This document shows, in pieces, positions 16,875-41,800 of a stretch of DNA of 44,143 nt; positions within the stretch are counted from its first letter, which is position 1, and each line of letters starts with the position of its first letter. Source of the DNA: Caldilineaceae bacterium (GTDB taxonomy: Bacteria; Chloroflexota; Anaerolineae; Caldilineales; Caldilineaceae); NCBI GenBank assembly GCA_026708085.1, contig JAPOVP010000020.1, forward strand, positions 1 to 44,143, in the 5' to 3' direction. Made by a program: the position numbers and the translations under genes. The notes beneath the pieces were generated by a model. It had not been told where the DNA came from. It made no database searches and worked only from the letters and a program-made list of their open reading frames with translations.

Positions 16875-17924
16875 TCAGACGGCGCCGAAGAGCCTCTGGG
16901 ACTGTTCGCAGGCCCTTCGAATCAGTGTGGGCACCTTGTGGCTGCTGTCGAGCTCCGGGCGCTGTTCAATCCAGCCGAGTGAAACCATGCTCCTGACAAG
17001 CACAAAAACGGGCAGCAGGTCGATGTCCGACCGGGATAAGGGGCGCTCAGTCAGATAGCCTGCGATAATGGCCTCACGGATTGTTTCAAAGTGGGGATTG
17101 TCCTGGTAGTAGGAGATGGCTACCGCCAACTCATATTGATGCCATCCGAAACCGGAATCGTCGAAATCGATGATATGCACGTTTTCGCCGGTTGTGATGA
17201 GGTTGCCCGGATGCAAGTCGGCGTGAATCAGACTGTAAGTCGCTTGCTCTCTGCCGTAATCGGTCAGGAGGTCATAGATTTTGTCGCGGGCGTAGATGAT
17301 CTGCGCACGTTCGGCGGGCTTCAGGTCCGACTGCTCCCAGAAGGGCCCCCAGAAGGGCGCTTCACCCATTAGTCCATCGGCGTCGAAGGCATGGCGTTCG
17401 AATCCGGCGGGCGGTGGCCAATCTGCGGCCTGGTTATGGATGCGGGCAGCAAGTTGGCCGACCTTGCGGAAGTAACTTGCAAGTCTGGCAGGATCGGCCT
17501 CCTGCTCTATAAGAGTTGCCATCGGGGTCCCTTCAACCCACTCGACCATGCTCACGTACCTTTTCTGGGACAGTTCAGGCAGGTCGAAAGGGACAAAGGC
17601 GCGCTCGTCTCTTGATAGGCGGGGCACAGGTGCGCCGATCCCCGACCGGTTCAGGGCGGCAGTCCAGTGAAATTCGCCGTGCAGCTCGGGAAGCGTATGG
17701 TAGCCGGGGCGGTGAAAGCGGAAGACGAAGGGTTGTCCGCATGCGGAGTCAATTCGAAAAACGATGTTTTCGGAATGAGATACCAAGGAGATTGCGGTTA
17801 CGTCGATGTCCCAGCCTTCCAGAGCGCGGGCGGCGGCGGTCAGCAACGCCTCCTCAAACCTTACTTCGTCCGTAAGTTGGCGCAGTCCGTCCGCCGAACT
17901 GGCTTCCATGCCGTGGCGTACCAT
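16875..17924 (-). CDS. APH/homoserine-kinase-fold phosphotransferase, last gene of the amidohydrolase operon
   Basis: The protein has an aminoglycoside-phosphotransferase/choline-kinase fold. The catalytic loop HADLHPGN (Brenner motif, D and N present) and the magnesium-binding IDFDDSGFGW are clear, at about residues 234-241 and 252-261 of the 349-residue form. I prefer the ATG at 17924, which has AAGG five bases upstream, over a TTG at 17948. Relatives phosphorylate small amines or alcohols such as homoserine, choline, ethanolamine or hydroxylysine. It lies 92 bp after a class III PLP enzyme of the phospholyase type. The two could form a kinase/phospholyase pair like vertebrate HYKK and PHYKPL. 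The substrate is inferred only. Confidence 0.88.
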   Translation of the reverse strand: MVRHGMEASSADGLRQLTDEVRFEEALLTAAARALEGWDIDVTAISLVSHSENIVFRIDSACGQPFVFRFHRPGYHTLPELHGEFHWTAALNRSGIGAPVPRLSRDERAFVPFDLPELSQKRYVSMVEWVEGTPMATLIEQEADPARLASYFRKVGQLAARIHNQAADWPPPAGFERHAFDADGLMGEAPFWGPFWEQSDLKPAERAQIIYARDKIYDLLTDYGREQATYSLIHADLHPGNLITTGENVHIIDFDDSGFGWHQYELAVAISYYQDNPHFETIREAIIAGYLTERPLSRSDIDLLPVFVLVRSMVSLGWIEQRPELDSSHKVPTLIRRACEQSQRLFGAV

Positions 17925-18016
17925 TTCCGCCTTCCGAATCTTGCCCAATTGAACCAGAGCGGGGCTATCTCCGACCTAAATCTGGCCACTGCCTGACGGA
18001 GTGCATCTCCTGGAGT

Positions 18017-19309
18017 TCAAGCATATTCAACTTGCTCTATGCTCTCCTCGAACGCGGTCAAGAAGAGGTCTGCGTGTTCCTGCTTGAAGACGAGCGGCGG
18101 CCGGATCTTCAGGATGTTTCCCAGAGGGCCCGCGCTGCCAATCAGGAATCCTTTCTCTCGCAGCCGGTTAACAACGGTGCTTGCGCCGTCGGCGTCCGGC
18201 CTCTTCGATTCAAGGTCCTGCACCCACTCCATGCCGATGAACAGTCCGTGACCGCGAACGTCGGCCATTCGCTCGCAGCTGGCCTGGAGCTTGCGTAGCT
18301 CGCCGCGCAGGTAGATTCCTGTGCGGTCGACGGCGCTCGCCAACCCCTCATTCTCGATCACGTCGATGACCGCCATGCCGGCCGCGGCCTGCAAGGGGCT
18401 GGCGGCGAAGGTATTGAAGTATCGCTTGTTTCTGCGAAACTCGTCTACCATCTCGCTCGATGCGGCGGCGCCGGCGACGGGCATTCCGTTGCCCATCGGC
18501 TTGCCCATGGTGACGATATCGGGGACGAAGCCGGTGGTCTCGTAGCCCCACCAGTCGCCGGTGCGGCAGAATCCGGCCTGGACTTCGTCGGCGATAACGA
18601 GGCCCCCGGCCGCATGTACGATTTCGGCAGCACGGCTCATGAATTCTCCCGGGATCGAAGGCAGGCCCTCGTTGGCGAAGATGGAACAGACGAGCATCCC
18701 CGCCAGGGGAATGCCGCCGGCCCGCAGACCGTCGATGGCGCTTTCGACTTCGGCCAGATAGAGCTCGGTCAATTCCTCATCGGAGACGCCGTCCCGGAGC
18801 GATCGGTAACGTTGCGGGAAGGGGAAGGCACGGATTTCGCTGGCTTTCTCCCCCTCCGCCTGCTGGCTGACGCGAGTGAACTTACTTACTTCGGCGCTGT
18901 TGCCGTGGTAGGCGGCATCGCTGCAGATGAATCCATGGCCTCCGGTTACAGCGCGGGCGATGGCCAGCGCGACTTCATTGGCCTCCGTGCCGGTGCAGGT
19001 GAATACTACAGAGGTCAGGGGGTCGGCGTGCAGGTTTGCCAGCCTTTCGGCGTAGTCGAGGACGTTTTCGTTCAGATAACGGCTGTGGACGTTTAACGTC
19101 TGCGACTGGCTGTACATGGCTTCGACGACATGTGGGTGGCAGTGACCGACGCAGGGCACGTTGTTGTACATATCCAGGTAGCGCCGGCCGCTGTCATCGT
19201 AGAGCCAGACTCCCTGGCCACGTACGATATTGACCGGTTTTTCGTAGAAGATCGGCGCGCCGGCGCCAAGCAGGTGATCGCGCCGGTCCATCAGGTCTCT
19301 ATTTGTCAT
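18017..19309 (-). CDS. Class III PLP enzyme, AGXT2L/phospholyase-like aminotransferase
   Basis: This is a fold-type I PLP enzyme of 430 residues. Cofactor residues are D241 (ADEVQAGF) and Schiff-base K270 in DIVTMGKPMGNGMPV. The GKPMGNG signature, the early VGHCHPHVVEA and the HSRYLNEN / LDYAERL segments resemble ethanolamine-phosphate and 5-phosphohydroxylysine phospholyases (AGXT2L1/AGXT2L2) more than ordinary GABA or ornithine transaminases. Such enzymes eliminate phosphate and ammonia from a phosphorylated amino alcohol. AGGAG lies five bases before the ATG at 19309. The gene sits between a Rieske ferredoxin (49 bp upstream) and a kinase downstream. An ordinary omega-transaminase remains possible. 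Confidence 0.88.
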   Translation of the reverse strand: MTNRDLMDRRDHLLGAGAPIFYEKPVNIVRGQGVWLYDDSGRRYLDMYNNVPCVGHCHPHVVEAMYSQSQTLNVHSRYLNENVLDYAERLANLHADPLTSVVFTCTGTEANEVALAIARAVTGGHGFICSDAAYHGNSAEVSKFTRVSQQAEGEKASEIRAFPFPQRYRSLRDGVSDEELTELYLAEVESAIDGLRAGGIPLAGMLVCSIFANEGLPSIPGEFMSRAAEIVHAAGGLVIADEVQAGFCRTGDWWGYETTGFVPDIVTMGKPMGNGMPVAGAAASSEMVDEFRRNKRYFNTFAASPLQAAAGMAVIDVIENEGLASAVDRTGIYLRGELRKLQASCERMADVRGHGLFIGMEWVQDLESKRPDADGASTVVNRLREKGFLIGSAGPLGNILKIRPPLVFKQEHADLFLTAFEESIEQVEYA

Positions 19310-19358
19310 GTCTTCTCCTGTTCGGTCTCAGATGCAGCCAGGTTTCCGGCCTTTATTG

Positions 19359-19736
19359 TCATTGGTCGAGATCAACAATGATATCGTTGCCAATAACGCG
19401 CACGGGATAGGTCTTGACCCGCACCCCTGGATCAACGAGACAGCGGCCGGTTGCGATTTCGAAGGGCCACTGATGCCATGGGCAACGCAGGACCTCGCCG
19501 TCTCCATCGACCGCTAACTCGGCCGCATAGGCGGAGGGCGGCGCGTCTGCATTGATGCGGCCGGTCAGCTCACCAGTGCAGAGGGGACCCCGCTTGTGGG
19601 GGCATATATTGCGGAGCGCGTACAGGTTACCGTTTACGTTGAAGACGCCGATGCCGGCCCTACCGCGAAAGGGCACGACGATTTTGCGGGATCCGGGGGG
19701 AATCTCCCAGACTTTGGCTATGACTACCCGGGTCAT
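19359..19736 (-). CDS. Rieske [2Fe-2S] ferredoxin-like protein
   Basis: This 125-residue single-domain protein has the Rieske cluster motif C45-P-H47 (NICPHKRGPLC) and C85-P-W-H88 (LRCPWHQWPFE). It is the right size for a soluble Rieske ferredoxin that passes electrons to an oxygenase or reductase. The loop between the two motifs is longer than usual, with a short Ala-rich insertion. Its ATG overlaps the stop of the preceding amidohydrolase by 4 bp (ATGA), so the two are translationally coupled. No oxygenase alpha subunit or reductase is in the operon. Confidence 0.93.
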   Translation of the reverse strand: MTRVVIAKVWEIPPGSRKIVVPFRGRAGIGVFNVNGNLYALRNICPHKRGPLCTGELTGRINADAPPSAYAAELAVDGDGEVLRCPWHQWPFEIATGRCLVDPGVRVKTYPVRVIGNDIIVDLDQ

Positions 19737-20872
19737 AGCCAGTCGTCTCCGATGCGGAGCATCTCCAAGGCGTTGTCAGCGAAGATGCGCTGCTGCGACT
19801 CGGGATCGAGTTTTGGAAAGGTTGTGACAGGGTCGTTCCAGTCGAAATGGGGGAAGTCGGAACAGTAGACGAGCGTTTCGTCGGCGTGGAGCATTTCAAG
19901 GAACTGGTAAAGCTGCTCGGTAGATTCGGCTTCGTGCAGCGGCTGCGAGCCGACGCGAATGTGCTCGCGGAAGTACTCGCTGGGCAGCCGCTTCAGCCAG
20001 GGTGTCTGGTCGCGGATGGCCTTCCAATCGGAATCCATGTGCCACATCACGGCTACAGCCCAGAGTTGCTGGGCTTCGGTGAGGGCGAACTTCAGGTTGG
20101 GGAACTTCTCGAAGACGCCTTCGCAGATCAGCGAGGAGGCGTGCGCGCTGGCCACGAAGGGGCGACTCATGCGCGACTCCATGTAGTAGGTGGGAAAGCC
20201 AACCGGCGTGGGCGTGGTGCGGGCCGCGCCGCTGCCGCCACCGATATGGGCGACGACCGGCAGGCCATGCTGCTCGCAGGCCTCCCAAATCGGGTGGAAG
20301 AAGCGGTTTCCAAACGGCATACTAGTGCCCATGGGGACCATGACGGCAACCGTGTCCTTGCGAGCGGCCAAACGGTTGATTTCACTGACGGCCTGTGCCG
20401 GGTCGGAGGGAGAGATGAGGATGGCGTTGACGACACGGTCATCCTTTTCCAGCCAGTGCTCGATGGTCCAGTCGTTGAAGGCGCGGCACAGGGCGGCGGC
20501 CCAGTCGGGGTCAGGCAGGCCGGTGTAGCCGTAGAAAGGCGGGGGGCCGGTGAGAAGCGCGTAGTCGATGTTCCACGGATCGAGATGTTCGCGCTGCATG
20601 AATTCCAACGAAAAGTTGAAGTCACGTTCCTTCAGGCCGGGGTCTTTCAGATCAGAACGATTGGTGCGGAAAGGCACATTGGAGTAGCCGGCGCTGGGAA
20701 GATGCAACCCCTGATCGATCAGGTGATTCTGCCAGAAAGTGGACAGGTAGGGCAGAAGCTGTTCGGGACGTTCAAAGTTGTGGTGGACGTCGCAGTCGAC
20801 GATCTTGACGCCTTCTTTGGGCTGCGCGGTCCAGCCTGGCGCCGAAATTGGGGCTGCCCCTATCTTGGTCAT
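19733..20872 (-). CDS. Amidohydrolase-2 family protein (third paralogue of the operon)
   Basis: The protein is a PF04909-type TIM-barrel hydrolase or decarboxylase of 379 residues. The N-terminal metal motif reads VDCDVHH (Asp in place of the first His of HxH). A metal-ligand His occurs in VVAHIGG, and the late metal Asp is in YCSDFPHFDWN. The start is the ATG at 20872, with AAGGAG eight bases upstream. A longer frame to 20923 is not supported. It lies 54 bp after the MscS gene. Family members hydrolyse or decarboxylate small aromatic or cyclic acids, and the substrate is unknown. It is clearly homologous to the two amidohydrolases upstream, sharing a CEGVFEKFPNL-type segment and the SEYxREH region. 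Confidence 0.9.
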   Translation of the reverse strand: MTKIGAAPISAPGWTAQPKEGVKIVDCDVHHNFERPEQLLPYLSTFWQNHLIDQGLHLPSAGYSNVPFRTNRSDLKDPGLKERDFNFSLEFMQREHLDPWNIDYALLTGPPPFYGYTGLPDPDWAAALCRAFNDWTIEHWLEKDDRVVNAILISPSDPAQAVSEINRLAARKDTVAVMVPMGTSMPFGNRFFHPIWEACEQHGLPVVAHIGGGSGAARTTPTPVGFPTYYMESRMSRPFVASAHASSLICEGVFEKFPNLKFALTEAQQLWAVAVMWHMDSDWKAIRDQTPWLKRLPSEYFREHIRVGSQPLHEAESTEQLYQFLEMLHADETLVYCSDFPHFDWNDPVTTFPKLDPESQQRIFADNALEMLRIGDDWL

Positions 20873-20926
20873 GGAAACATCTCCTTGAGCACAGTCGAGT
20901 CGTTCAAGACATCTGAGAGCCAAAGC

Positions 20927-21808
20927 CTATAGATCGGCATCGGCTGCGGAGACCAATGGAACGTTTGGGCCGAAGGAATCCCTCTTCAGCCACACATCCC
21001 TTTGCGGGAAAGGAATGGAGATTCCTCGCTCTTGCAGACCAAAGTAGATGGCTTCGAGGATTTCGCTAAGCGAGGAAAGCCTTTGCGATGGATCATCGAT
21101 CCAGTATTGAATGCGAAACAGAAGCGCGGAATCTGCGAACTCAACCAGAAACGTACGCGGCTCCGGGTCGGACAACACGGCCGAGTGCGCTGCGATTTGG
21201 GAGTGAAGGATTTCGTGTACAGCGCTGATGTCGGTGCCGTAGGCGACTCCGATGTGGGATTCGATACGCAGGATCTGGTCCGACTTGGTCCAGTTGTCAA
21301 GGCGCTGCGATACCATTAAGGAGTTTGGAACAATTACTTCAGTATTGCTGAACGTTTTGACAACGGTCGTACGCAGGCTCATTTCCTGAACGGTTCCGCG
21401 GATTCCATCGACCTCAATCACATCGCCATCCCGTATGGTCCCTTCGGTCATCAAGACCAACCCGGCGATATAGTTGCTGGCCAGGTTCTGAAGCCCAAGC
21501 CCCAATCCGATGCTCAGCGCGCCGAGGGGCACCAGGAAAATAGACAGGTTTATGCCCAAAGAGGACAGAGAGGTGTATACACCTGCAAACAGAATTGAAA
21601 GGAAAACAGTGGTACGGAGCAGCCGCCGGTTGGTCGCCGTAAGCCTGAGCCTTCCTTCCAAGCGATTCTGGAACTGGCGTGCGCCAACACGGGCCAGAAT
21701 GTAGAACAGGAGGACGATGCCGACCGTAATCAGCAGGTCGATCGGCGTTAGTGAAGATCCCTGAACTGTTGTTACCGGGGTATTCAGGAAGCGGATGATA
21801 CCGCCCAT
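20927..21808 (-). CDS. Small-conductance mechanosensitive channel (MscS family)
   Basis: This 293-residue protein has three membrane helices (about 22-43, 64-84 and 88-120). The last is the Gly/Ala-rich pore helix (ALSIGLGLGLQNLASNYIAG). It is followed by the MscS beta domain (GDVIEVDGIRGTVQEMSLRTT and the VPNSLMVSQ segment) and a cytoplasmic alpha/beta domain. MscS channels release solutes under osmotic stress and some act as metabolite exporters. It is flanked by amidohydrolase genes on both sides with 20- and 54-bp gaps, so it is part of the operon. The ribosome site before the ATG at 21808 is weak. Confidence 0.93.
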   Translation of the reverse strand: MGGIIRFLNTPVTTVQGSSLTPIDLLITVGIVLLFYILARVGARQFQNRLEGRLRLTATNRRLLRTTVFLSILFAGVYTSLSSLGINLSIFLVPLGALSIGLGLGLQNLASNYIAGLVLMTEGTIRDGDVIEVDGIRGTVQEMSLRTTVVKTFSNTEVIVPNSLMVSQRLDNWTKSDQILRIESHIGVAYGTDISAVHEILHSQIAAHSAVLSDPEPRTFLVEFADSALLFRIQYWIDDPSQRLSSLSEILEAIYFGLQERGISIPFPQRDVWLKRDSFGPNVPLVSAADADL

Positions 21809-21828
21809 TTATTGCGTCCGGTTCGAAG

Positions 21829-22944
21829 CTAAACCAGCTTGTAGAACTGGCGGGCATTCTCGGCCATGATGTTTCGCCGGGTTTCGAGCGGTAGAGTTGC
21901 CGGCAGCGCCCTGTCCGGAGAGTCGAAGTCCCAATGCGGGTAGTCTGTGGCGAACATCAGCTTGCTTCCGTTGTCCATCTGTTCCAGAAGCTGGACGAAA
22001 TGTTCGTGTTGCCTGGGTTCCTCCATGGGCTGTGTAGAGAGCCAGAAGTGTTCGTGCATGTATTCGGATGGCGCCTTCGTCAGATAGGGCGTTTCGGCTT
22101 TCAGTCGCTTCCAACTCTGGTCCAACCTCCATGCCAAGGAGGGCATCCAGGCGAAACCGCCTTCGATGATCACGATGCGCAGTTCGGGGAAATGCTCAAA
22201 GACACCTTCGCAAACAAGGCTGGCGACCTGGGCCTGGAAGGATTGGGCCATGCCGGTGTGATCTTCGATGTAGTAGGAGGGCCAGCCGGCGCCTGTAAGG
22301 GGATGTCCGGCACTGCCGCCGAAATGGATGCCGATTGGGAGGTCATACTCCAGTGCGGCTTCGTACATCTTCCAGTATTTGCGCCGGCCAAGCGGCTCCT
22401 GGGTTCTTACCACGAGGATGATCTGCACGAAGCCTTCATGGTCGCCAAGTCGATGTATTTCCTGCGCGGCGAGCTCCGCGTCCTCATAGTTTACGAGGAT
22501 TGACGCACGCAGACGGGGCTCAAGTTCGAGCCACTCTGCGATCTGGTAGTCGTTGATTGCCCGTGCCAGCTGCGCGCCGTACGCCAGGTTGACCTGACCG
22601 CCGGCGCCTACCAGTGGATTCAGGACGCCGTAATCCATATCGAAGGCATCCAGCAACTGCTCGCGCATAAAGTCGAGGTCTGTGCCGGGAGGGCGTCCGC
22701 TTGGGGGCCAGGCATCTGTACGGGCAGCGTTGGGTTGATGGCGGGGATAGCCAACGCCGTAATGCCCACGCATTCCGATCATTTCGTGGTAGTCGCGCCA
22801 CTCGGGCGCCAGATAGTCGGAGATAATCTGATTGAAGACGGGGTCATCGTAGACGTCAAAGTTGTGAATGTCGGTATCTATCACCGCCAGCTTTGTCTTC
22901 TCTGCTATCTGCGGTTGTTCGGTGATCTCAAGATTCTGAGTCAT
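21829..22944 (-). CDS. Amidohydrolase-2 family protein (second paralogue of the operon)
   Basis: The 371-residue TIM-barrel enzyme has metal motif VIDTDIHN at the N-terminus, the central His in IGIHFGG, and the late Asp in FATDYPHWDFDS. It therefore has the ligands expected for a mononuclear metal site, with Asp replacing the first His of the usual HxH. GGGAG lies eight bases before the ATG at 22944. The gene begins 12 bp after the stop of the first amidohydrolase. Its closest relative in the window is that protein, with which it shares the FAWMPSL and SEY/SDY segments. The substrate is unknown. The reaction could be hydrolysis of an amide, ester or lactone, or a decarboxylation. Confidence 0.91.
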   Translation of the reverse strand: MTQNLEITEQPQIAEKTKLAVIDTDIHNFDVYDDPVFNQIISDYLAPEWRDYHEMIGMRGHYGVGYPRHQPNAARTDAWPPSGRPPGTDLDFMREQLLDAFDMDYGVLNPLVGAGGQVNLAYGAQLARAINDYQIAEWLELEPRLRASILVNYEDAELAAQEIHRLGDHEGFVQIILVVRTQEPLGRRKYWKMYEAALEYDLPIGIHFGGSAGHPLTGAGWPSYYIEDHTGMAQSFQAQVASLVCEGVFEHFPELRIVIIEGGFAWMPSLAWRLDQSWKRLKAETPYLTKAPSEYMHEHFWLSTQPMEEPRQHEHFVQLLEQMDNGSKLMFATDYPHWDFDSPDRALPATLPLETRRNIMAENARQFYKLV

Positions 22945-22955
22945 GGCAGATCTCC

Positions 22956-24122
22956 CTAGAGTCGATAGAAGGAGCGGGCGTTTTCCGACCAGATATTGGA
23001 ATTGAGCGGTTCGGGCAACTCCACCGGCCAGGCGTCACCGTCATCATCATAGTGCCAGTGCGGATAGTCGGTTGAGAACATGAGCATAGTGTCCGATTCC
23101 AGCTGTTCAATTGTCTGGAGGATGTAGCGGGGGTCGGGCGGGGCGCCGACCGGTTGCACTGTCAGTCGCATGTGATCACGGATGTAGTCGGAAGGCGGGC
23201 GCCTCACCCAGGGGGTATTGGAACGCAGCCCCTTCCACTCCTTGTCGAGCCTCCACATGAGTGAAGGCATCCATGCAAATCCGCCCTCGATGAGGGCGAT
23301 GCGCAGGTCGGGGAAGCGGTCAAATGCACCTTCGGCGATGATGCTGATGACTTGAGACTGAAACACTTGCGCCATGCCGGCGTGCTCTTCGAGATATGTC
23401 GAAGGCCAACCGACCGGCGTCGGCGGGTTGCCGGGGGCGCCGCCGAAGTTGATGCCGACAACCAGGTCGTGCTCGACTGCGGCTGCGAACAGCGGATCGT
23501 AGTAGCGGTTTCCGTAGGGGATATAGGAGCGAACAGGGATGACCACCTGGACGAATTGGGGATGGTCGCCAAAGCGATGAATCTCCTCCGCGGCGCGGGC
23601 CGGGGCCTGGCTGGGTACGACCAACGAGCCGCGTAGCCGCGGTTCGGGCGTCAGCCACTCGTCAATTTGCCAGCGGTTGGCAGCGGTAGCCAAGTCCGCG
23701 GCCAGATCTTCCTGCCTCACGCTTTGGACGCGGTAGGAGCAGTTCAGGATACCAGTTTCAGTGCTCCATGGGGCCAAAGCCTGCTCCCGAACCAGCTGAA
23801 GAGTGGAGCCCGCTTGCCCGCCCTCCGCAGGAATGGAACCTGGTCGAGCAGAGGTGGGCGCCCCGCGAGGATAGTCGTTGGCGTGGGGACTGTTGAAGGC
23901 TGACCCGCGGATATAGTCCTGCCAGTAGTCGGCCAAGTAGGGCATCAACTGGTCGACCGACGACACCTCGTTGTGGATGTCGCAGTCAACCACTGGATGC
24001 GCAGGGGCAGGATTCTTCCTACCATTGACAGGTTGCGCTGCAGTTCGGCCGCGATTCGCGGGGTTATGTCCGTTTTCGGACGCAGCCGAATGGGACTGCG
24101 GTGCATGGGCGTTTGCGGTCAT
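22956..24122 (-). CDS. Amidohydrolase-2 family protein, first gene of the operon, missing a metal His
   Basis: This is a 388-residue amidohydrolase with a 40-residue polar leader that its paralogues lack. The N-terminal motif is VVDCDIHN (D46, D48, H50) and the late metal Asp is in FSTDYPHW. The central ligand His found in the two sister proteins (GIHFGG, VAHIGG) is Asn here: N225 in VGINFGG. It may bind metal differently, be metal-independent, or act as a non-catalytic partner. The gene begins about 50 nt after a strong predicted promoter and is followed after 11 bp by the second amidohydrolase. The start ATG has only a weak ribosome site. Confidence 0.9.
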   Translation of the reverse strand: MTANAHAPQSHSAASENGHNPANRGRTAAQPVNGRKNPAPAHPVVDCDIHNEVSSVDQLMPYLADYWQDYIRGSAFNSPHANDYPRGAPTSARPGSIPAEGGQAGSTLQLVREQALAPWSTETGILNCSYRVQSVRQEDLAADLATAANRWQIDEWLTPEPRLRGSLVVPSQAPARAAEEIHRFGDHPQFVQVVIPVRSYIPYGNRYYDPLFAAAVEHDLVVGINFGGAPGNPPTPVGWPSTYLEEHAGMAQVFQSQVISIIAEGAFDRFPDLRIALIEGGFAWMPSLMWRLDKEWKGLRSNTPWVRRPPSDYIRDHMRLTVQPVGAPPDPRYILQTIEQLESDTMLMFSTDYPHWHYDDDGDAWPVELPEPLNSNIWSENARSFYRL

Positions 24123-24181
24123 GGATGCCAGTTCTCACGGTCCACTTGCGATTGATGGTGTAGAGAATTGAAGTTACGCAG

Positions 24182-24210
24182 ATTTTAACGCTTTGTGCCC
24201 CGGGCGTCAA
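24182..24210 (-). promoter_or_regulatory. Predicted sigma70-type promoter of the amidohydrolase operon
   Basis: On the minus strand TTGACG (24210-24205) is followed after exactly 17 bp by TAAAAT (24187-24182). Each hexamer matches consensus at five of six positions. The predicted start lies near 24174, about 50 nt before the ATG at 24122. No terminator-like hairpin with a T-run was seen within the seven genes that follow. Confidence 0.6.
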
Positions 24211-25384: not shown

Positions 25385-25669
25385 ATGGATGCTCAGACCC
25401 AGCCACGCCAGCGACTTCTGTATCTGCATGCGCGGACGCCAAGCGTGTTTTCGGAGATACTGGGGTACACACTGATTGAGCCAGTCAAGGGATTTCAGGT
25501 CGAAATCAGCGGCGGGGAGTTTGAATGGCCTTACACGACCGTACATGACGCCGTTGTTGACGGCTGGCAGATTGTTCAGTTCCCGCATTTGCAGTCCCCC
25601 TTTAGCGATACCGACCTCGATATAGTGGGCTATGAGTTCATCTTGCAGAAGATGGAGGAGATTTCATGA
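25385..25669 (+). CDS. Small conserved-looking protein coupled to PhyH dioxygenase
   Basis: This is a 94-residue soluble protein I cannot assign to a named family. It has a mixed alpha/beta look, with aromatic-rich strands such as GGEFEWPYTTVHD and GWQIVQFPHLQSPF, and no cysteines, signal peptide or membrane segment. Its stop overlaps the ATG of the PhyH gene (ATGA at 25666-25669), so it is translationally coupled. It also sits 40 nt behind a strong predicted promoter. A TTG at 25379 with AGGA upstream is an alternative start, adding two residues. By context it may be a partner or regulator of the dioxygenase. That is inference. Confidence 0.75.
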   Translation: MDAQTQPRQRLLYLHARTPSVFSEILGYTLIEPVKGFQVEISGGEFEWPYTTVHDAVVDGWQIVQFPHLQSPFSDTDLDIVGYEFILQKMEEIS

Positions 25670-26472
25670 CAGACACCAAATATCTGTTGACGGACGTTGA
25701 CATGGCGCTCTTTCTGGTAAACGGCTACCATGTCGTCGAATTGGACCTGCCCGCGGGTCTAGACGAGCAGATTTCCGAAAAGCTGGACGAGCTGACCGCC
25801 AACCCGGGCGACGCGATTACTGAATCGGTGCCTGAGCTTTGGCAGGTGGTGGAGCATCCTCAGGTGCGGGGCGCGCTGATTAGCCTTCTTGGCGAGGATT
25901 ATGCTGTGAATTCCCACCGGCACTGGCACTGTAAACTGCCCGGTTCGGGCGACATGCAGTGGCACCAGGACGGGACGAACGACCGCGGCACGACGATCGA
26001 TCGCTTGCTGGGGCTGTACTATCCACACGCCATCACTGCGGACATGGGACCAACGGTCATCGTTCCGGGGACGCAGTTTCGCAACGCGCCGACGGACAGA
26101 ATGGCGACCTATACAAATATTCGAGGCCAGGTGCCCCTGACAGTCCCGGCTGGTACTTTTGCAATTACTCACTACGATCTGTGGCACGGCACTGCCAGCA
26201 ATCGATCAGGTGTCAAGCGCCACATGATCAAGTTCCTGTTCAACCGCACGAGCGGGAACAGTGCCCCCTCATGGAACCATGACCCAGAGGCGCTTGAGCG
26301 TGAGCGCGATTGGGACGCGCGCGACAAAGCGCAGGATGCGGTAAACATACTTTCCTTTGGCAACCCATTGGGGGTCTCTCAGAGCGATCACTACAAGGAG
26401 CGGATCATCCGCCATGCTTGCTGGCAGGAGTTGATGGGGAATCATGAGCAACAAGAGGCACGCCGATTCTAG
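25666..26472 (+). CDS. Phytanoyl-CoA dioxygenase (PhyH) family Fe(II)/2-oxoglutarate oxygenase
   Basis: This 268-residue double-stranded beta-helix oxygenase has the iron facial triad H100-x-D102 (MQWHQDGTN) and H174 (LWHGTASN), and a 2-oxoglutarate-binding Arg in the following NRSGVKRHM. The reaction is hydroxylation of an unknown substrate using O2, Fe(II) and 2-oxoglutarate, releasing succinate and CO2. Bacterial PhyH proteins act on many small molecules, so substrate cannot be read from sequence. It is coupled by a 4-bp overlap to the 94-aa protein upstream. The downstream neighbour is a SAM-dependent methyltransferase 351 bp away. Confidence 0.92.
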   Translation: MTDTKYLLTDVDMALFLVNGYHVVELDLPAGLDEQISEKLDELTANPGDAITESVPELWQVVEHPQVRGALISLLGEDYAVNSHRHWHCKLPGSGDMQWHQDGTNDRGTTIDRLLGLYYPHAITADMGPTVIVPGTQFRNAPTDRMATYTNIRGQVPLTVPAGTFAITHYDLWHGTASNRSGVKRHMIKFLFNRTSGNSAPSWNHDPEALERERDWDARDKAQDAVNILSFGNPLGVSQSDHYKERIIRHACWQELMGNHEQQEARRF

Positions 26473-26580
26473 GCTCTGTTGACGATTCTGTGGAGGCCTC
26501 TCAGAATTCGACAGGAAGGTAGATCCTGCAGGAAAGTCAGGGAGGTTTCTGGCTTGAATGATGTGAAAAGCGAAACCGAT

Positions 26581-26652
26581 TGAACCGCGAAGGCACGCGA
26601 AGCGGCGCGAAGAACACCTTTGATCCACGAAGGGCCACGAAGGGCCGCTAAG
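26581..26652. repeat. Short CGAAGG-type direct repeats
   Basis: The gap between PhyH and the methyltransferase (26473-26823) contains repeated GCGAAG/ACGAAGG words, including two perfect tandem copies of CCACGAAGGG at 26625-26644. Similar repeats recur in intergenic regions of many bacteria with large genomes. No gene is visible in this gap. Confidence 0.6.
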
Positions 26653-26823
26653 GTCACCCAAAGGCTACTGGGATTTTCCTTGCGTGAATGCGTGGGTCAG
26701 CCGCACTTTGCTCACGCGATTCGCTGTTCTGCCATATGTCAACATCCTAATCTTGGAGGCGAACTACTCGCCTTTCCGACATTTTTCGGAGACAAATTCA
26801 AGAGACCATGAGAGTTAGCCTAT

Positions 26824-27630
26824 ATGGATGAGCTTTCCAGTTTCAATCGAGAGCGCTGGAATGGATTGGCACGCGCTGGTGTCCTGTACTCGCGGCCCAA
26901 ATTGGAGTTGGACGAAGCCGCAGCACGAGCAATGGTGGACGAGGCGGGCTTGCTTGGCGACGTGCAGGACAAGCGCGTTCTCGTGCTCGCAGGCGGCGGA
27001 GGACAACAGTCTGCCGCGTTGGGTCTTCTGGGGGCCAAAGTTACAGTACTGGATCTGTCTGATGAGCAGCTAGTGAAGGATCGAGTGGCGGCCGAACACT
27101 ATGGGCACTCGCCGGTGCTTTTGCAGGGTGACATGCGGGATCTTTCGCGATTCGATGATGACGCGTTCGACATCGTCTATCAGCCCTTTTCGATCAACTT
27201 TGTACCGGACGTCCGCCCAGTCTTTGCCGGCGTGGCGCGTGTTCTCAGGGCGGGCGGTCTTTACCACGTGCAGTGGCACAATCCGTATACGCAGACTTTT
27301 AACCCTGACGACTACGATCCGGTAAGGGGATATTCATCCAATTCGATCTATAGAGACGGTGAGGTCGACGTCGTTGCCATCTACGGCACCGATACCTGGG
27401 GCGTTGAAGGCGAGGATGGCTCCAAGATGGAATTGCCTGGTCCCAGGGAGTTTCGACACACGATGCCGACGTTTGTCAACGGATTGATAGCGAGCGGGTT
27501 CGAGATCCTGGCATTCAGTGAGCACACGACCTGGGAGGATGACCCGGAGCCGGGCTCGTGGGAGCACTTCAAGGCGGTCAGCCCGCCCTACTTGGCGTTC
27601 TGGACGCGGAGGGGAGGCAATAGCGACTGA
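26824..27630 (+). CDS. Class I SAM-dependent methyltransferase
   Basis: This 268-residue protein has the class I methyltransferase Rossmann core. Motif I reads VLVLAGGGGQQSA (about 57-69), followed by the acidic end of strand 2 (VTVLDLSDEQL), motif III GDMRDLSRFDDDAFDIVYQPFS and the post-motif VLRAGGLYHVQWHNP. It resembles small-molecule methyltransferases of the Methyltransf_11/25 type. The substrate is unknown. Seven codons before the start there is only a weak purine run. It is on the same strand as PhyH but 351 bp away, so it may be a separate unit. It converges with the sulfatase, 32 bp apart. Confidence 0.9.
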   Translation: MDELSSFNRERWNGLARAGVLYSRPKLELDEAAARAMVDEAGLLGDVQDKRVLVLAGGGGQQSAALGLLGAKVTVLDLSDEQLVKDRVAAEHYGHSPVLLQGDMRDLSRFDDDAFDIVYQPFSINFVPDVRPVFAGVARVLRAGGLYHVQWHNPYTQTFNPDDYDPVRGYSSNSIYRDGEVDVVAIYGTDTWGVEGEDGSKMELPGPREFRHTMPTFVNGLIASGFEILAFSEHTTWEDDPEPGSWEHFKAVSPPYLAFWTRRGGNSD

Positions 27631-27662
27631 CGAATCTGCCGAACGATGCCTACCACCTGTCA

Positions 27663-29003
27663 CTAGACGGGAAGCACGAACGGATCTGCAGTCTTTGCGA
27701 CTTCCTGTCTCAACAGTTGGCGGTGCTCGGACAGGATCTCTCCGTAGGCCGGTCGGTAAGCAAGGTTGTCGGTTTCGCCAGGGTCAGACTCCAGATCAAA
27801 GAGCATTTCGGGGCGCTGTCCGTGGGAAAAGGCGATATATTTGTAGTGGGCCGTGCGGATCATGCGGCCCTTTTTTGTTTCATCGTCCAAGAAAGGCTGT
27901 AGCTCCGTCACGAGATTCGAGCGCCCTGGTAGTGACGGATTCTCAATTGCCGGGCGTATACTCTGCCCGTCGATTCCTGCCGGGGGGGCGATGTTGGCGT
28001 AGTCGCACAGTGTCGGAAGAAGGTCTACGCCGGAAACCAAGTGTGTGCGGTCCACGCGGTTCTCAGGTACTGCCCCCGGCAGCCTAATCACGAAGGGCAC
28101 TCTGACTACTTCCTCCCAGAGCATCAGTTTGGTGACCCACTTGTGGGCGGCGACTCCTTCACCATGATCGCTTGTCAGCACGACAAGCGTGTCGTCGACA
28201 AGACCACTTTCCTCCAAGGCCCCGAGCAGGCGGCCGATTTGCTCGTCGACGCGTTCGGTAAGGCGGTTGTAGACATAGAGGTATTTGCGCCAATCTGTTT
28301 CTTCCCAGTCGTGGGTCCAGCTCATTTCGGGGCCGTACTCGGTGCGGTTGCGGCAGAGGCCGACGAACTCTGGCTCGTCCGTGACTGGCTGGAAGTTGGC
28401 GGGGAGCGGAGGAAGTTCAATGCCGGAAGGGACGTCGACAAAGTGGCGCCATTCCATCACCCAGTAGCAGATGTCATGGGGATTGTGAAGGGAAGCCACG
28501 AGTAGGAATGGGTTATCGGAGCCGGAGTCACGCGGGCCCTGATTTTGCAGGAAGTCTACGGCATGGTCTGTCCATACGGGATCGGTGTCGGTGCCGAGTT
28601 GACGGGGTATTCCTTCAGGGTATTCGTCGCAGAGGAACTCGAAGCCCTGACTGCCCTCTGCTTCCTCGATGCCTTTCCTGGGATTCGGCCCCAGATGCAG
28701 TTTTCCGGCGTAGCAGGGTCTGTAACCGGCCTGGCGGAAGTGCTGACCCATGGAAGTGATGCCAGGTTCGACGGCAGGTCCGTTGACCTCTACACCGGTC
28801 CTGTGCGGGAGCCGACCGGAGAGGAGACTGCCGCGAGAGGGACCGCAGACGGGTGAGGCGCAGTAGGCGTTTTGGAAGCTGAGCCCGCTGCGGACGAGGG
28901 AGTCCATGCGCGGCGTATGCAGGTACTGACTTCCATGTGCGCTCAGCGCGGAATGAGTCTGCTGATCGGTAAGGATGACGAGAATGTTGGGCGGTGTAGA
29001 CAT
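27663..29003 (-). CDS. Type I (formylglycine-dependent) sulfatase
   Basis: This is a 446-residue sulfatase. The metal-binding N-terminus reads NILVILTDQQ, and the maturation motif C53-G-P-S-R57 (within PVCGPSRGSLLSGR) carries the Cys that is converted to formylglycine. Later motifs include DHGEG (metal ligands) and HKWVTK. There is no signal peptide, so the protein looks cytosolic, as in choline-O-sulfatase-like enzymes. The start is the ATG at 29003; a longer frame upstream to 29120 lies over the predicted promoter and is not real. No formylglycine-generating enzyme is seen in the window. The substrate, likely a sulfate ester, is not identifiable. Confidence 0.93.
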   Translation of the reverse strand: MSTPPNILVILTDQQTHSALSAHGSQYLHTPRMDSLVRSGLSFQNAYCASPVCGPSRGSLLSGRLPHRTGVEVNGPAVEPGITSMGQHFRQAGYRPCYAGKLHLGPNPRKGIEEAEGSQGFEFLCDEYPEGIPRQLGTDTDPVWTDHAVDFLQNQGPRDSGSDNPFLLVASLHNPHDICYWVMEWRHFVDVPSGIELPPLPANFQPVTDEPEFVGLCRNRTEYGPEMSWTHDWEETDWRKYLYVYNRLTERVDEQIGRLLGALEESGLVDDTLVVLTSDHGEGVAAHKWVTKLMLWEEVVRVPFVIRLPGAVPENRVDRTHLVSGVDLLPTLCDYANIAPPAGIDGQSIRPAIENPSLPGRSNLVTELQPFLDDETKKGRMIRTAHYKYIAFSHGQRPEMLFDLESDPGETDNLAYRPAYGEILSEHRQLLRQEVAKTADPFVLPV

Positions 29004-29057
29004 TGGGGACTCGCGCGGGAAAAGTTGGGCGGCTTCAAGTCTTGACGAACCAGTCCC

Positions 29058-29087
29058 ATTTGACCCCAAGTAAAGGGGGTTGTCAAA
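29058..29087 (-). promoter_or_regulatory. Predicted sulfatase promoter overlapping an inverted repeat
   Basis: On the minus strand TTGACA (29086-29081) and TCAAAT (29063-29058) are separated by 17 bp. The hexamers are also the outer arms of an imperfect palindrome: TTTGACCCC at 29059-29067 faces GGGGTTGTCAAA at 29076-29087, with a TTG interruption. It is a likely operator, but the regulator is unknown. Confidence 0.5.
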
Positions 29088-29192
29088 GAAACTCAGTACT
29101 GAGATGGCGGCCGCGCCCACCCCCCCAACAATTTGAGACGAGGTTACGCGTACAGAGGTCTTGCTCCGAAACGTTGTCGAATACAGGGAAAC

Positions 29193-33815: not shown

Positions 33816-36800
33816 TCAGTTGGACTTTTCAGTGCCCGGCGAGGCGGCAACGGCGTCAGCCTCCGGCTGTGACGGAAGAGAGCTGTAGGTTCCTTCCACA
33901 CCGGGGTCAACCTGGACTTCCGCCACTTGCCTGCCGGCGCCGCTTGTTCCGCACCAAGCGGAAATGAGGCTTCTGTCCGGCAGCGTGAGAAAGCTCAGAC
34001 TTTTCGAGGTTGCGGTCGTGGCAATGACGGCGTTCTCCAAGGAGAAGTAGGTGTTTGAGTCGGTTTTGGAACGGTGGTAGATCTTGTAGGATTCCACACA
34101 GGTATCTGCGTCGTTCCAGCTGACTTCGAGATCGATATTGCCGTTCTGAGGCAGCGATAGCTCGACAGTTATTGAACTGACATCGACCTGCTGGGTAGAA
34201 AACAGTTCCACTGTAGAGGCCGACTCCAGGATGGTTGTCGCCTGCAACGAAGGGTAGTCGCCCGAGGCTTCCGAAGCAGTGCTTGAGGACGTCCGGGTCA
34301 CGCCGGGAAGAAGGCCGGCAAGATTTGTAAGGTTGCGGTAGACCCATGTCTGGCCTGATACGCCAGCCAGCCTGATCTGGAGCCAGTCCGTCCGGGCGTT
34401 GACGCCGATAATCCGGACCCAAGTTCCCTTTGAAATCGTAGTCACGAGACTGTAGCCAAGGCCGGGGCCATTGCGCACATTGAGCGTTGGTGTGTCGACG
34501 ATTGCGACGGGCAGAATCGCGATTTCGGCGGCGGTGATGCGCTTTACGTTATTGAGATTTCCGACCAGAACGGTAAGGTCCTCGCGAATCCACCCCAACT
34601 GGCTCAATCCGCTGATCTCGACCAGATACCAGTTCTCGTCCGGACTGAGTCCCAAAATGCTAGCCCTAGTCCCTTGCGGAACTGCCTTCAGGACACCGTA
34701 AGTCAGGCCCGGGCCTACTCGGATATTGACGAGGGCAGGATAGGTAACAGCAACCGGTCGAACAGTGTTTGTGACGCCGTTGGGCTGACCCACCTGCCCA
34801 AATCCGACCCGTCTGACCCCGGCAAGTGAGCCGACCACGGTGGTCAGATTCCGATAGATCCAGGCCGGTTCGGTCAAGCTGTCCAACTTCACCAGGAGCC
34901 ACTCTTCTTGCGGGTCGATGCCGACAATCTCTGCCCGCGTGCCCTTCACAACGGTAGTAACAATCTCGAACTGTGTACCCGGACCCCTGCGCACGTTCAA
35001 GACAGCAGGGATGGTGATTGCGATGGGGTTGGCGTTACAGGTGTCAGTTGTGACCACATCAGTCGGTGTGTATCCGTCCACTTCCGCCAACGTATATCGC
35101 TTGACGCCTCCAAGAGGGCCTTCAACAGTGGTCAGGCCTGCGTAAATCCAGGCCGGCTTGCTCAACGCGTCCAGTGTGACTTTATACCACTCGGCGTTGG
35201 GGCCGATGCCAATGATGGTGGCCTGGGTCCCCTTGGTAACGGAAGTCAGAATCCTGTAGGTAAGGCCCGGCCCGGCGCGCACATTCATGACCGCCGGCGT
35301 CGTCGTCGCGATGGGGCCGTCGGCCGGCTTGGGAATGAGATCGATTTCCCACTGTTCCAAGAATCGAACGCCACTCAGTGAACCTTCGACCGTGGCAAGG
35401 TTCTGACAGATCCAAACCATGTTGCTAGCGGCGTCAATCTGGACCTGGAACCAGTTGTCAGCAGGGTCTCTACCGTAGATGTTCCCACGAGTCCCAGCCG
35501 GCACCGTTGTCATCACTTCATAATCGAGGCCCGGCCCTCTTCGAACGTTCAGCCAGGGCGGTACGGTAATGGCTACCGGAATGGGCGCCGGCGACCACTG
35601 CTGCTGTTGCGGTGCGTGTGACGAAGCAGGGGGAACATATTTTTGTTGGTTGTTAGAACCGCTGCCTGAATTTCTCTTGGAACCCGAGTTACTACCACCG
35701 CCTTTGTTGCCGCCACCCTGATTGCCGCCACCCTGGTTCCCGCTACCTGGGTTCCCGTTTGGAGACTTGCCGCCCTGATTGCCGCCGCCATTATCGGGCT
35801 GGCCTGGCGGGCCGGTCTGACCGGCGGCGACAGTAATGGTGAATGTTTCGCTGGCAGACGCCTGGGTTCCGTCGGTAACTGTGTATGTAACGACTCTCGT
35901 CACAGCAGTTGATGGTGTTCCGGTGATCGTGCGCGTCCCTTGCACAAAGTCGAGCCCGTCGGGCAGAGTCGTGACGCCATACGTGTATGGTGTCGATCCT
36001 CCGCTGGCGGCAGGTAGTTGCTGGGTAAACTGCAGGCCCACAGTTGCCGTGAATTCTTTCGTCGCTCCAAGTGACAGTTGTAAGGGATCCTGGGTGTTGC
36101 CACTGCCAGGTCCTAAGGGCTGGCCGGTTTGCCCGGCGCTGACTGTGATCGTGAAGGTATCGCTGGCGGAGTTCAATATGCCGTCGGTCACTCTGTAGGT
36201 GACAACTTTCGTCTCAGCCGACAATGGCGTTCCTGTGATGGTACGCGTCGCATGTTCGAAGGTAAGGCCTGCGGGCAGGACTGAGACGCCGTAGGCGTAG
36301 GGTGACGTTCCTCCACTGGCTGCGGGGAGCTGCCGTGTGAACAGGACGCCAACCGTTGCGGCGAATTCTTTGCTTGCGCCGACCGAAAGTTGCAGATCGC
36401 CAGGCGTGCTGCCTCCCCCCGATTCTTCTGGCTGGATTGTTTGGGCCTCGCCTACCGCGATAATGAAGGTGTCACGGGCGGTGTTGCGGTTGCCGTCAAT
36501 CACTGAGTATGTGATGACCATAGTCACTGCAACGGCGGGCGTTCCTGTGATGGTACGCGTTGCTTGCTCGAAGTTCAGTCCTGTCGGAAGGGTTGTGACG
36601 CTGTAGGCGTAGGGTGACGAGCCGCCGCTAGCTGCCGGGAGCTGCTGCGTGAACAGCTGCCCGACAGTGGCCGAAAACCCGGTCGAGTCGGGCAGTGTGA
36701 GGGGGGCAGGGTTTACAGTGATTGTGAAGTGGTCGCTGACCTGGCTGTTGTTGGCGTCGGTCACCGTATAGGTGACATTGGTCGTGCCCGGGGATGTAGG

Positions 36801-38765: not shown

Positions 38766-38836
38766 GTCTTTCGCGAAGTATTCGAGCGGCGAGTCTCCAC
38801 CTGTGGCGGCTGGCAGCTCCTGGCTGAATGGCGAGC

Positions 38837-41800
38837 CTACTCTGCCGGTGTGTAACCCGATATGGTGGGAAGTGACGGCTTCAGGTCGGCAGCGACTGTG
38901 ATGGAAAATGTCTTGCTGTCTTCATCCCCGTCTTCGTCTCGCACCGTGTAGGTAACTGTTGGCGATTCGACGGCTGACGGCGTGCCCTGAATCGTACGTG
39001 TGCTGGTGATGAAGCTAAGGCCTGTAGGCAGGTTGGTAGCGGTATAGTCCAGAGGGGGGTCGCCGCTCGTGGCCTCTGGCAGCAACTGGCTGAATGGCGA
39101 GTCGACTCTGGCGGAGTACCCTGAAATGGAGGGCAGAGTTGGCATCAGATCGGCTGCGATGGTGAAGACAAAAGTCGTGCTGGCTTCGTCGCCATCAGCG
39201 TCGCGAACCGTGTAGGTCACGGTTGGAGCTTGCTCGGTTGTTGGTGTGCCGGTAATCGTACGTGTGGTCGTGATGAAGGTAAGGCCGGTCGGCAGATTTG
39301 TAGCGTTGTAGCTTAGCGGTGCATCTCCTCCGGTGCCCTCCGGCAGCTGCCGGGTGAAGAGACTCCCTTTTCTAGCTGAGATACCAGATATCGATGGGGC
39401 GGTCGGCTCGAGATCCTGGTTGACCGTGATTGTGAAGTCTACGTAGGCGGAGTCTCCGTCGCTATCGGTTACGGTATACCTTACCGTAAACGGTCCGTGC
39501 CGAGTCGGCGTGCCTGCAATCGTGCGCGTTGATTCCGTGAAGAGTAGACCGTCAGGCAGACCCGTAGCGCCATAAGAAAGCGTACCGTCTCCTCCGCTGC
39601 CTGCGGGCAGCTGATGGCTAAACGGGTCATTCTGCTTGGCAGTCAAAGGCGAGACGCTTGGCGCCGACGGTGTCAGATTGGGATTGACCGTGATCGTGAA
39701 TTCTACACTGTCTGAGTCGCCATCGCTGTCGGTAACCGTGTAGGTCACGGTTGGGGCTTCCTCAGATTCCGGTGTGCCCGTGATGGTTCGTGTGCTGGTG
39801 ATGAAAGTAAGGCCGGTCGGCAGATTGGTGGCGGTGTAGCTGAGCGGCGTATCTCCGCTCGCGGCCTCTGGCAACTCCTGGCTGAATAACGAGCCCACTT
39901 TGCCGGTGTACCCTGAAATGGAGGGCAGAGTTGGTATAAGATCGGCTGCGATTGTGAAGACAAAGGTCGTACTGTCGGTGTCGCCATCAGCGTCTCGAAC
40001 CGTGTAGGTCACGGTTGGGGCCTGCTCGGTTGTGGGTGTGCCCGTGATGGTACGCGTGGTCGTGATGAAAGTAAGGCCGGTTGGCAGATTCGCGGCGTTG
40101 TAGCTTAGGGGTGTGTCACCTCCGGTACCCTCCGGCAGCTGCCGGGTGAATAGACTCCCTTTCCTAGCTGAGATGGCTGATATCGACGGGGCGGTCGGCT
40201 CGAGATCCTGGTTGACCGTGATTGTGAATTCTACGTAGTCCGAGTCGTCGTCGCTATCGGTTACGGTATACCTTACCGTAAACGGTCCGTGCCGAGTCGG
40301 CGTGCCTGCAATCGTGCGCGTTGATTCCGTGAAGAGTAGGCCGTCAGGCAGACCCGTAGCGTTATAAGAGAGCGAACCGTCTCCTCCGCTGCCTACGGGC
40401 AACTGGTGGCTAAATGGGTCATTCTGCTTGGCGGTCAAGGGGGAGACGCTCGGCGCAGAAGGTGTCAGATTGGGATTGACCGTGATCGTGAATTCGACAT
40501 AGGCTGAGTCGCCATCGCTGTCGGTAACCGTGTAGGTCACGGTTGGGGCTTCCTGAGATTCCGGTGTGCCCTGAATCGTACGTGTGCTGGTGATGAACGA
40601 AAGGCCGGTCGGCAGATTGGTGGCGGTATAGCTGAGCGGCGTATCTCCGCCTGCGGCCTCTGGCAGCAACTGGCTGAATGGCGAGCCCACTTTGCCCGAG
40701 TACCCCGATATGGCGGGAAGTGTCGGCATCAGGTCCTCTGCAACTGTGAAGACAAAGGTGGTGCTGTTTTCATCGCCATCACTGTCTCGAACCGTGTAGG
40801 TCACGGTTGGAGATTCCACAGTTGTGGGTGTGCCGGTGATGGTACGTGTGGTCGTGATGAAAGTAAGGCCGTTCGGCAGATTGGTGGCGTTGTAGCTTAG
40901 CGGCGCGTCTCCTCCGGTGCCGTCCGGCAGCTGCCGGGTGAAGAGACTTCCTTTTCTTGCTGATAAGGCTGATATCGACGGGGCGGTCGGATTGAGATCC
41001 TGGTTGACTGTAATTATGAATTCTACGTAGGCAGAGTCGCCGTCGCTATCTGTGACCGTGTATCGCACAGTTGAAGGCCCTGTGCCTGTCGGTGTGCCGG
41101 CGATCGTGCGGGTTGTCGTAATAAAGCTCAGACCTTCAGGCAGCCCTGTTGCTCCGTAAGATAGCGTTCCGTCTCCTCCACTCCCTGCAGGCAGCAGCTG
41201 GCTAAACGGCGTATTCTGTTTCGCCGTATAGCCGGGGACGCTTGGCGCCGACGGTGTCAGATCGGGATCGACGGTGATTGTGAATTCGACATAGGCTGAG
41301 TCGCCATCGCTGTCGGTAACCGTGTAGCGGACGGTGGAGGTCCCGGTGCCCGTAGGGGTACCGGCGATTGTGCGGGTTGACTTGGTGAAGAGCAGTCCGG
41401 GGGGCAAGCCGGTAGCGTTGTAGTCTAGCGTACCGTCGCCGCCGGTGCCTACAGGCAGTTGCTGGCTGAAGGGGGAGTTTTGTTTTGCGGTCAGGTTCGA
41501 CACTGACGGCGCTGTCGGCGTTAGATCGGGGTAGCCAATGATAAAGTCGACGGAACCGGAAATGATTTCATTTCCCGAATTATTCTTTATTTTACTTACT
41601 ATCTTGTAGGCGCCGGCAGGACAGTCGGCGGGAATCGTTATGCGATTCAAATCAGGGTTATGGTTGAAAGTTCCTGAGACATCCACCCCCCATCCAACCA
41701 GACTACCGCCGCAGTCCATACGACCTACGGGCTGATTTGTGGATGTGTTTGTCATCGTGTCGAGACTTACAATCGCGGTGCCAGGTTGTATGTCGTAGAA

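Follow-up and report, generated by a model that had tools for sequence, protein, structure and literature searches.

A predicted seven-gene operon of Caldilineaceae groups putative ARO-family oxygenases and a Rieske ferredoxin with a candidate amino-alcohol kinase and ammoniophospholyase

The seven-gene unit and its upstream region

The window, that is, the whole stretch of 44,143 nucleotides analysed here (Caldilineaceae bacterium, contig JAPOVP010000020.1), carried a unit of seven genes on the minus strand, encoding three amidohydrolase-fold proteins (AHS1 to AHS3), a mechanosensitive channel, a Rieske protein, a class-III pyridoxal phosphate (PLP) enzyme (AT3) and a kinase (KIN). Pfam assigned Amidohydro_2 (PF04909) to the three AHS proteins and MscS, Rieske, Aminotran_3 and APH to the others. 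The features of the unit, with the evidence for each, were:

24182..24210, minus strand: promoter-like TTGACG-17-TAAAAT upstream of gene 1 (10/12 consensus matches and conservation)
22956..24122, minus strand: gene 1, AHS1, putative AibH1-type partner in an amidohydrolase-related dinuclear oxygenase (ARO) (Pfam, tree, alignment, model)
21829..22944, minus strand: gene 2, AHS2, AibH2-type subunit, predicted catalytic (Pfam, tree, six metal ligands)
20927..21808, minus strand: gene 3, MscS-family mechanosensitive channel (Pfam)
19733..20872, minus strand: gene 4, AHS3, putative SfbO-type ARO (tree, six ligands, N/R/R oxyanion residues)
19359..19736, minus strand: gene 5, small Rieske [2Fe-2S] ferredoxin (Pfam, CxH and CxxH motifs)
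18017..19309, minus strand: gene 6, AT3, class-III PLP enzyme of the ammoniophospholyase clade (Pfam, tree)
16875..17924, minus strand: gene 7, KIN, APH-fold small-molecule kinase (Pfam, nearest solved relative 6ef6)

The starts of AHS3 and KIN were taken as the ATG at 20872 and 17924, respectively; a TTG was likewise open for each (20923 and 17948). A first-pass annotation of this DNA had described seven genes on one strand forming one unit behind a promoter, and its six intergenic gaps were all reproduced (11, 20, 54, -4, 49 and 92 bp in gene order 1 to 7, the AHS3 and Rieske genes overlapping by 4 bp). Codon comparison with two related loci (L025 and L034) showed mostly third-position substitutions and zero stops in all seven genes.

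Promoter-like matches in the region occurred at chance level (4 found, against a mean of 3.6 in shuffled sequences), so it is the conservation of the site that backs the promoter. TTGAC-18 bases-TAnAAT was present 5' of gene 1 in 17/17 upstream regions (that of the window and those of the 16 close loci; 16 of these 17 sequences entered the alignment), at 57-62 bases from the gene start in 15 of them and at 98 and 108 bases in L038 and L037, respectively, and much of the sequence around it differed between loci. An internal terminator could have split the unit: the minus strand from 16875 to 24122 showed no terminator-like site, and one further weak promoter-like match (9/12) lay within the last gene, KIN, at 17198. 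Co-transcription of the seven genes as an operon is predicted.

Amidohydrolase-fold proteins

In searches of solved structures all three AHS proteins fell with AROs, at E-values that were 68, 75 and 97 orders of magnitude below that of the best decarboxylase. In the FastTree phylogeny AHS1 grouped with AibH1 and AHS2 with AibH2 (clade supports of 0.973 and 0.953, with 0.914 for the wider AHS2 node and 0.386 for one between), and AHS3 grouped with SfbO (1.0). The labels of homologues were assigned by best hit and some misfitted the tree: L088_AHS2 came out within the AHS1 half and L100_AHS1 within the opposite one, and five AHS2-labelled sequences together with L103_AHS3 stood outside the AibH2 clade, in a wider group with 8sm7, 8sm8, 8sm9 and SfbO. 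For the predicted model of AHS1, AibH1 chains ranked first, practically tied with 8sm9.

For a comparison of the metal ligands, 168 sequences, those of the window among them, were aligned with six stretches of PDB chains. The set was complete in AHS2 (D25, H27, H207, E261, D334, H337; D, H, H, E, D, H in AibH2) and in AHS3 (D28, H30, H209, E266, D339, H342); DHHEDH was found in 75/75 AHS2 sequences, with the aspartate matching D342 of AibH2 in 74/75, and both were kept in 19/19 AHS3 sequences. AHS1 had five of the six ligands, with N225 in the third position, and was for this reason filed as an AibH1-type partner subunit and not as a catalytic ARO. Across the AHS1 set the third ligand was H, N, Q or Y (47, 14, 9 and 4 sequences, respectively), and a histidine occupied the D342 site in 63/74.

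AibH1 and AibH2, two members of the amidohydrolase superfamily, hydroxylate 2-aminoisobutyrate with the Rieske protein AibG and the flavoprotein AibF, as described by Hibi et al. (PMC7782822); Powell et al. (PMC10401708) describe a Mn/Fe site in AibH2 and a D342A mutant with less activity. The Rhodococcus wratislaviensis cluster treated in these two reports likewise combines two genes for amidohydrolase-fold proteins with one for a small Rieske protein. As with the aib proteins, AHS2 kept the six ligands and D342, AHS1 had a histidine at the D342 site, like AibH1, and the two genes were adjacent (11 bp gap). The differences were nevertheless considerable: identity was just 36% (AHS1-AibH1) and 40% (AHS2-AibH2), the third ligand histidine kept in AibH1 was lost in AHS1, a third ARO and the MscS gene were added, and a phospholyase and a kinase lay downstream, where the aib cluster has dehydrogenases.

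SfbO, a cambialistic ARO (PDB 8sm6), was found through its Rieske neighbour in Litorilinea aerophila, which belongs to Caldilineaceae like the source genome, and N-dealkylates PIPES, as described by Liu et al. (PMC10811679). AHS3 was 47% identical to it and kept the six ligands and D342. The sulfate-binding N67, R232 and R235 of SfbO were also kept, and W341 was replaced by F, in all 17 operon-type AHS3 sequences. Both genes adjoin a Rieske gene, but that of AHS3 is shared with an AibH1H2-type pair, and the closer SfbO relative in the source genome was another gene (contig C5, L012), in which the W was kept. One sulfate ligand printed as 280Y in PMC10811679 is a D at that number in the 8sm6 chain; the other four agree.

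AHS1 to AHS3 are thus most likely members or partners of the ARO family and not ring or amide openers; on sequence grounds, their identity as oxygenases is highly probable.

Rieske ferredoxin

The Rieske protein carried its cluster motif, CxH..CxxH, as CPH and CPWH. The seven proteins were compared by tblastn with 79 named loci encoding an AHS1 relative (from the best 80 of 83 in the scan). At 61 of these loci (16/16 close loci and 45/63 others) a Rieske gene and an AHS gene were no more than 400 bp apart, and the motif was present in all 62 Rieske segments. The 18 loci without a nearby Rieske gene included nine from Poribacteria, five with a second paralogous pair (L040-L044) and three at contig edges (L064, L071 and L090). 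It had been proposed that the Rieske protein supplies an oxygenase elsewhere; the AHS proteins next to it group with the family that its discoverers recognised through just such a neighbour (PMC10811679, PMC10401708), and this proposal was not supported.

Six Rieske matches were found in the source genome, that of the operon included, as well as further ARO-like sets: AHS1-AHS2-Rieske on contig C52 and an SfbO-like gene with a Rieske gene on C5. The paralogous AHS1-AHS2 pair (L005, on contig C103 of the source genome, and L040-L044) was 74-76% identical and had no Rieske match beside it; L005 and L041-L043 had a gene for an RraA-like aldolase next to it on the facing strand, and L042-L044 had one for a zinc alcohol dehydrogenase upstream. 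An AHS2-like gene, also without a Rieske match nearby, was located amid ABC transporter genes (solute-binding protein and two permeases) and an enoyl-CoA hydratase gene in L010 (contig C61 of the source genome) and L043.

PLP enzyme and kinase

Among solved structures, AT3 scored 351 bits to the phosphoethanolamine phospholyase A1RDF1 (PDB 5g4i), 301 bits to human ETNPPL (6tor), and 185 bits to the next family. In the tree it was placed in a clade with both phospholyases (support 0.972), and its orthologues together with A1RDF1 (1.0) stood apart from seven class-III paralogues of the source genome. NNVxxVGH, an SRYL-like motif and GKPxGNG (GKPMGNG around the PLP lysine of AT3) were common to AT3 and the phospholyases, and were not shared by those seven paralogues. 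Two motifs differed in AT3 and its orthologues: GNGHP of A1RDF1 and ETNPPL was replaced by GNGMP/LP, and FAGNP/YGGNP by FAASP; the substrate of AT3 may therefore differ.

AT3 alone scored 417.6 bits with the NCBIfam model PRK06148 and 345 bits with PRK06149, below the curated cut-offs of 1128 or 973 bits for the whole chain. An aminophosphonate lyase of the PbfA type was considered for AT3 and rejected (210 bits, against 418 for PRK06148). PRK06148 models a kinase-PLP fusion, of which the N-terminal part matched KIN and the C-terminal part AT3; kinase and PLP enzyme form one chain in the PRK06148/PRK06149 fusions but are separate genes here, the PLP enzyme preceding the kinase, so that the partner kinase of AT3 is encoded next door. 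In other genera of the family an AT3-like domain occurred within open frames of 998-1123 amino acids in 12/13 matches, the other being cut by a contig end. Two AT3 homologues had one in-frame stop each (L138, G006:C118:5273-6547; L186, G432:C125:5249-6514, in a genome with a 50% AT3 relative), which may be a sequencing error, decay or the end of the chain.

The nearest solved relative of KIN, by sequence and by the fold of its predicted model, was the aminopropanol kinase 6ef6 of a bacterial microcompartment (147 bits, 30% identity over 308 residues, against 23 bits for YihE). Its HxDxxxxN motif (HADLHPGN, 234-241) and DFD (253-255) did not vary among 10 aligned sequences. The open reading frames scanned, all from the window, included no microcompartment genes. 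Phosphorylation and beta-elimination of an amino alcohol had been guessed in the first-pass annotation, and this guess stands because AT3 groups with A1RDF1 and KIN is nearest to an aminopropanol kinase. The identity of KIN and AT3 as a kinase-phospholyase couple is very likely, almost to the degree granted to the oxygenases.

Conservation of the unit

The nearest named relatives of the source genome were uncultured Caldilineaceae (metagenome-assembled genomes). At the 16 closest named loci AHS1 was 78-94% identical to that of the window, and 12 of them held the complete seven-gene set in order; at L026 the contig ends within the PLP gene. MscS was present in 15/16 (L038 being the exception). 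The flanks were also partly shared: upstream a PhyH gene (10/16) and a methyltransferase gene (11/16), downstream two genes that by eye were taken as helicase-like and NAD-synthetase-like (14/16); some of the other loci ended at contig edges.

Forty-six genomes of the family, 17 of the genus and 29 others, were surveyed. AHS3 was found at 89-100% identity in 17/17 genomes of the genus and in 0/29 others, 15 of which had a 45-51% relative (E 1e-100). AT3 was present in 14/17 genus genomes (E 1e-80), each time on the same contig within 0.75 kb downstream of AHS3 and behind the Rieske gene on the same strand (14/14). KIN was present in 15/17: beside AT3 in 13, at the end of another contig in one and without AT3 in one; none was found in the 29 other genomes at E 1e-40. 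Conserved gene order in relatives, which had been expected for a true unit, was thus borne out within the genus; the conserved part seen outside it was AHS-AHS-Rieske only.

A general link of AROs with kinase and phospholyase was rejected, since none of the 63 more distant AHS1 loci had a match to KIN or AT3 in its DNA, and KIN was found in 1/20 ARO-locus genomes. Neighbours of the distant loci, scanned in one member per cluster, suggested no consistent substrate: PALP, GMC oxidoreductase and beta-lactamase-fold proteins in Poribacteria, and a Cys/Met PLP enzyme in L045. In Poribacteria (L050, L053, L054, L057, L058, L060, L061, L063 and L077) AHS1 was behind genes for a GMC oxidoreductase and a PALP-family protein, a context (one member of each scanned) different from that of the window.

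Elsewhere in the window, genes for the Phytanoyl-CoA dioxygenase family, a methyltransferase and a sulfatase lay upstream of the unit (25666-29120), and two very long repeat proteins (1649 and 1302 amino acids) with He_PIG Ig-like domains throughout, one of them with SH3_3 repeats, were encoded at 33816-42745.

Proposed pathway

We favour, at somewhat better than even confidence, a single pathway in which the AROs and the Rieske protein would hydroxylate an amine, KIN would phosphorylate the product and AT3 would eliminate phosphate and ammonia. Electrons would pass from a reductase to the Rieske protein and on to AHS2 and AHS3. AHS1 and AHS2 would likely form one AibH1H2-type oxygenase, AHS2 being catalytic and AHS1 its partner, and AHS3 would likely be a second, SfbO-type oxygenase recognising an anionic group, the two sharing the single Rieske protein. 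The amine would be hydroxylated, or N-dealkylated as PIPES is by SfbO; KIN would act on a hydroxyl installed beside the amine, and the products of AT3 would be NH3, phosphate and a carbonyl compound. MscS could release an osmolyte or a product. We infer co-transcription, a heteromer, a Mn/Fe or Fe2 cofactor, O2 chemistry, the succession of steps and the coupling between the halves; if both identities are granted, coupling in one pathway is likely.

A bolder version, an oxygenate-phosphorylate-eliminate scheme for inert amines, is distinctly doubtful: AHS3 would hold the phosphate via its N/R/R residues and strip an N-alkyl group from a phospho-amine, giving the order AibH1H2-type hydroxylation, KIN, N-dealkylation by AHS3 and AT3 (NH3, phosphate and an aldehyde or ketone).

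Several results weigh against the proposed pathway. No aldehyde dehydrogenase or uptake transporter was present among the seven genes. The reductase AibF presumably carries PF00970, and a search of the source genome (97% complete) for an AibF-type reductase as PF00970 gave no match, other reductase families lying outside that search; in the control, matches were found in 8/14 genomes. The other unfavourable results bear on the alternatives below.

The alternative that survives best, on balance unlikely, is that genes 1-5 are an ARO unit downstream of which AT3-KIN landed as an independent amino-alcohol or phosphoethanolamine cassette, merely co-expressed. Two close loci (L036 and L037) carried genes 1-5 only, with the Rieske gene directly flanking the helicase-like gene, and L038 kept KIN without MscS or the PLP gene. 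In the genus, 3/17 genomes had no AT3 (E 1e-80) and 2/17 no KIN (E 1e-40) while AHS3 was kept; it was in the three without AT3 that AHS3 diverged most (89-90%). The 20 ARO-locus genomes searched for KIN were 19 from the 63 more distant loci and L038; KIN was found in L038, of the close set, and was missing from the other 19. In addition, when 400 other Chloroflexota genomes were drawn, AT3-KIN pairs occurred in 3/3 genomes with an AT3 of at least 62% identity, and the 11-12 kb fetched around each pair held no AHS match; AHS2 matches (E 1e-20) were absent genome-wide in two of the three, and the third had two. These ARO-free pairs make the tie between AT3 and KIN firmer and that between the pair and the oxygenases weaker. 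Set against the cassette are the position of AT3 behind the Rieske gene on the same strand in every genus genome having it, the 49 bp gap between the two genes with its AGGAGA ribosome-binding-like stretch, and the chemistry of AT3-KIN, which suits a hydroxylated amine.

There is a small probability that the second half is no amino-alcohol route, AT3 being a class-III transaminase of the ordinary kind and KIN a stress kinase of the RdoA/YihE type, unrelated to such a route. All listed NCBIfam scores of AT3 and KIN were below curated cut-offs; the best model for KIN was PRK11768, a serine/threonine kinase (61 bits, cut-off 194), against 34 bits for the PRK06148 fusion, and some KIN relatives are named RdoA-type kinase by a source. 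The branch separating AT3 orthologues from A1RDF1 had a support of only 0.37, and the altered GNGHP and FAGNP/YGGNP motifs point the same way as the cut-offs. The bit scores of AT3 to phospholyases, well above that to the next family, its motifs missing from the class-III paralogues, and the preference of KIN for 6ef6 over YihE argue for the kinase-phospholyase couple.

That AHS1-3 are hydrolases or decarboxylases opening a ring or amide stepwise, as in the first-pass annotation, with the Rieske protein serving another oxygenase, has a very slight probability and was rejected: PF04909 does include carboxylases, hydratases and hydrolases according to PMC10811679, but AROs are the closest relatives among solved structures, no dinuclear ligand is missing from AHS2 or AHS3, which also have D342, and a Rieske gene accompanies most AHS loci.

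Significance of the gene combination

AROs, phospholyases and amino-alcohol kinases are each already known; the combination of the three, with two ARO kinds on one Rieske gene, was not found in the open-licence literature searched. Powell et al. (PMC10401708) report 555 AibH2-like proteins with six ligands, a Rieske neighbour in 90% and permeases in 40%, and describe neighbourhoods that otherwise hold few co-occurring proteins for inferring function. The presence of an ammoniophospholyase and a kinase of the amino-alcohol type in one unit with two ARO kinds suggests as product an amine that can be phosphorylated, most probably a vicinal amino alcohol. The cluster would thereby offer a short list of candidate substrates for these metal oxygenases, a family on which little work exists. 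The label “amidohydrolase”, which derives from family-based annotation, is corrected for the AHS genes. If the N-dealkylation version were true, two distinct dinuclear-metal oxygenases would work on one Rieske ferredoxin; if the proposed pathway is true, the unit would constitute an O2-dependent deamination route for amines without a reactive handle.

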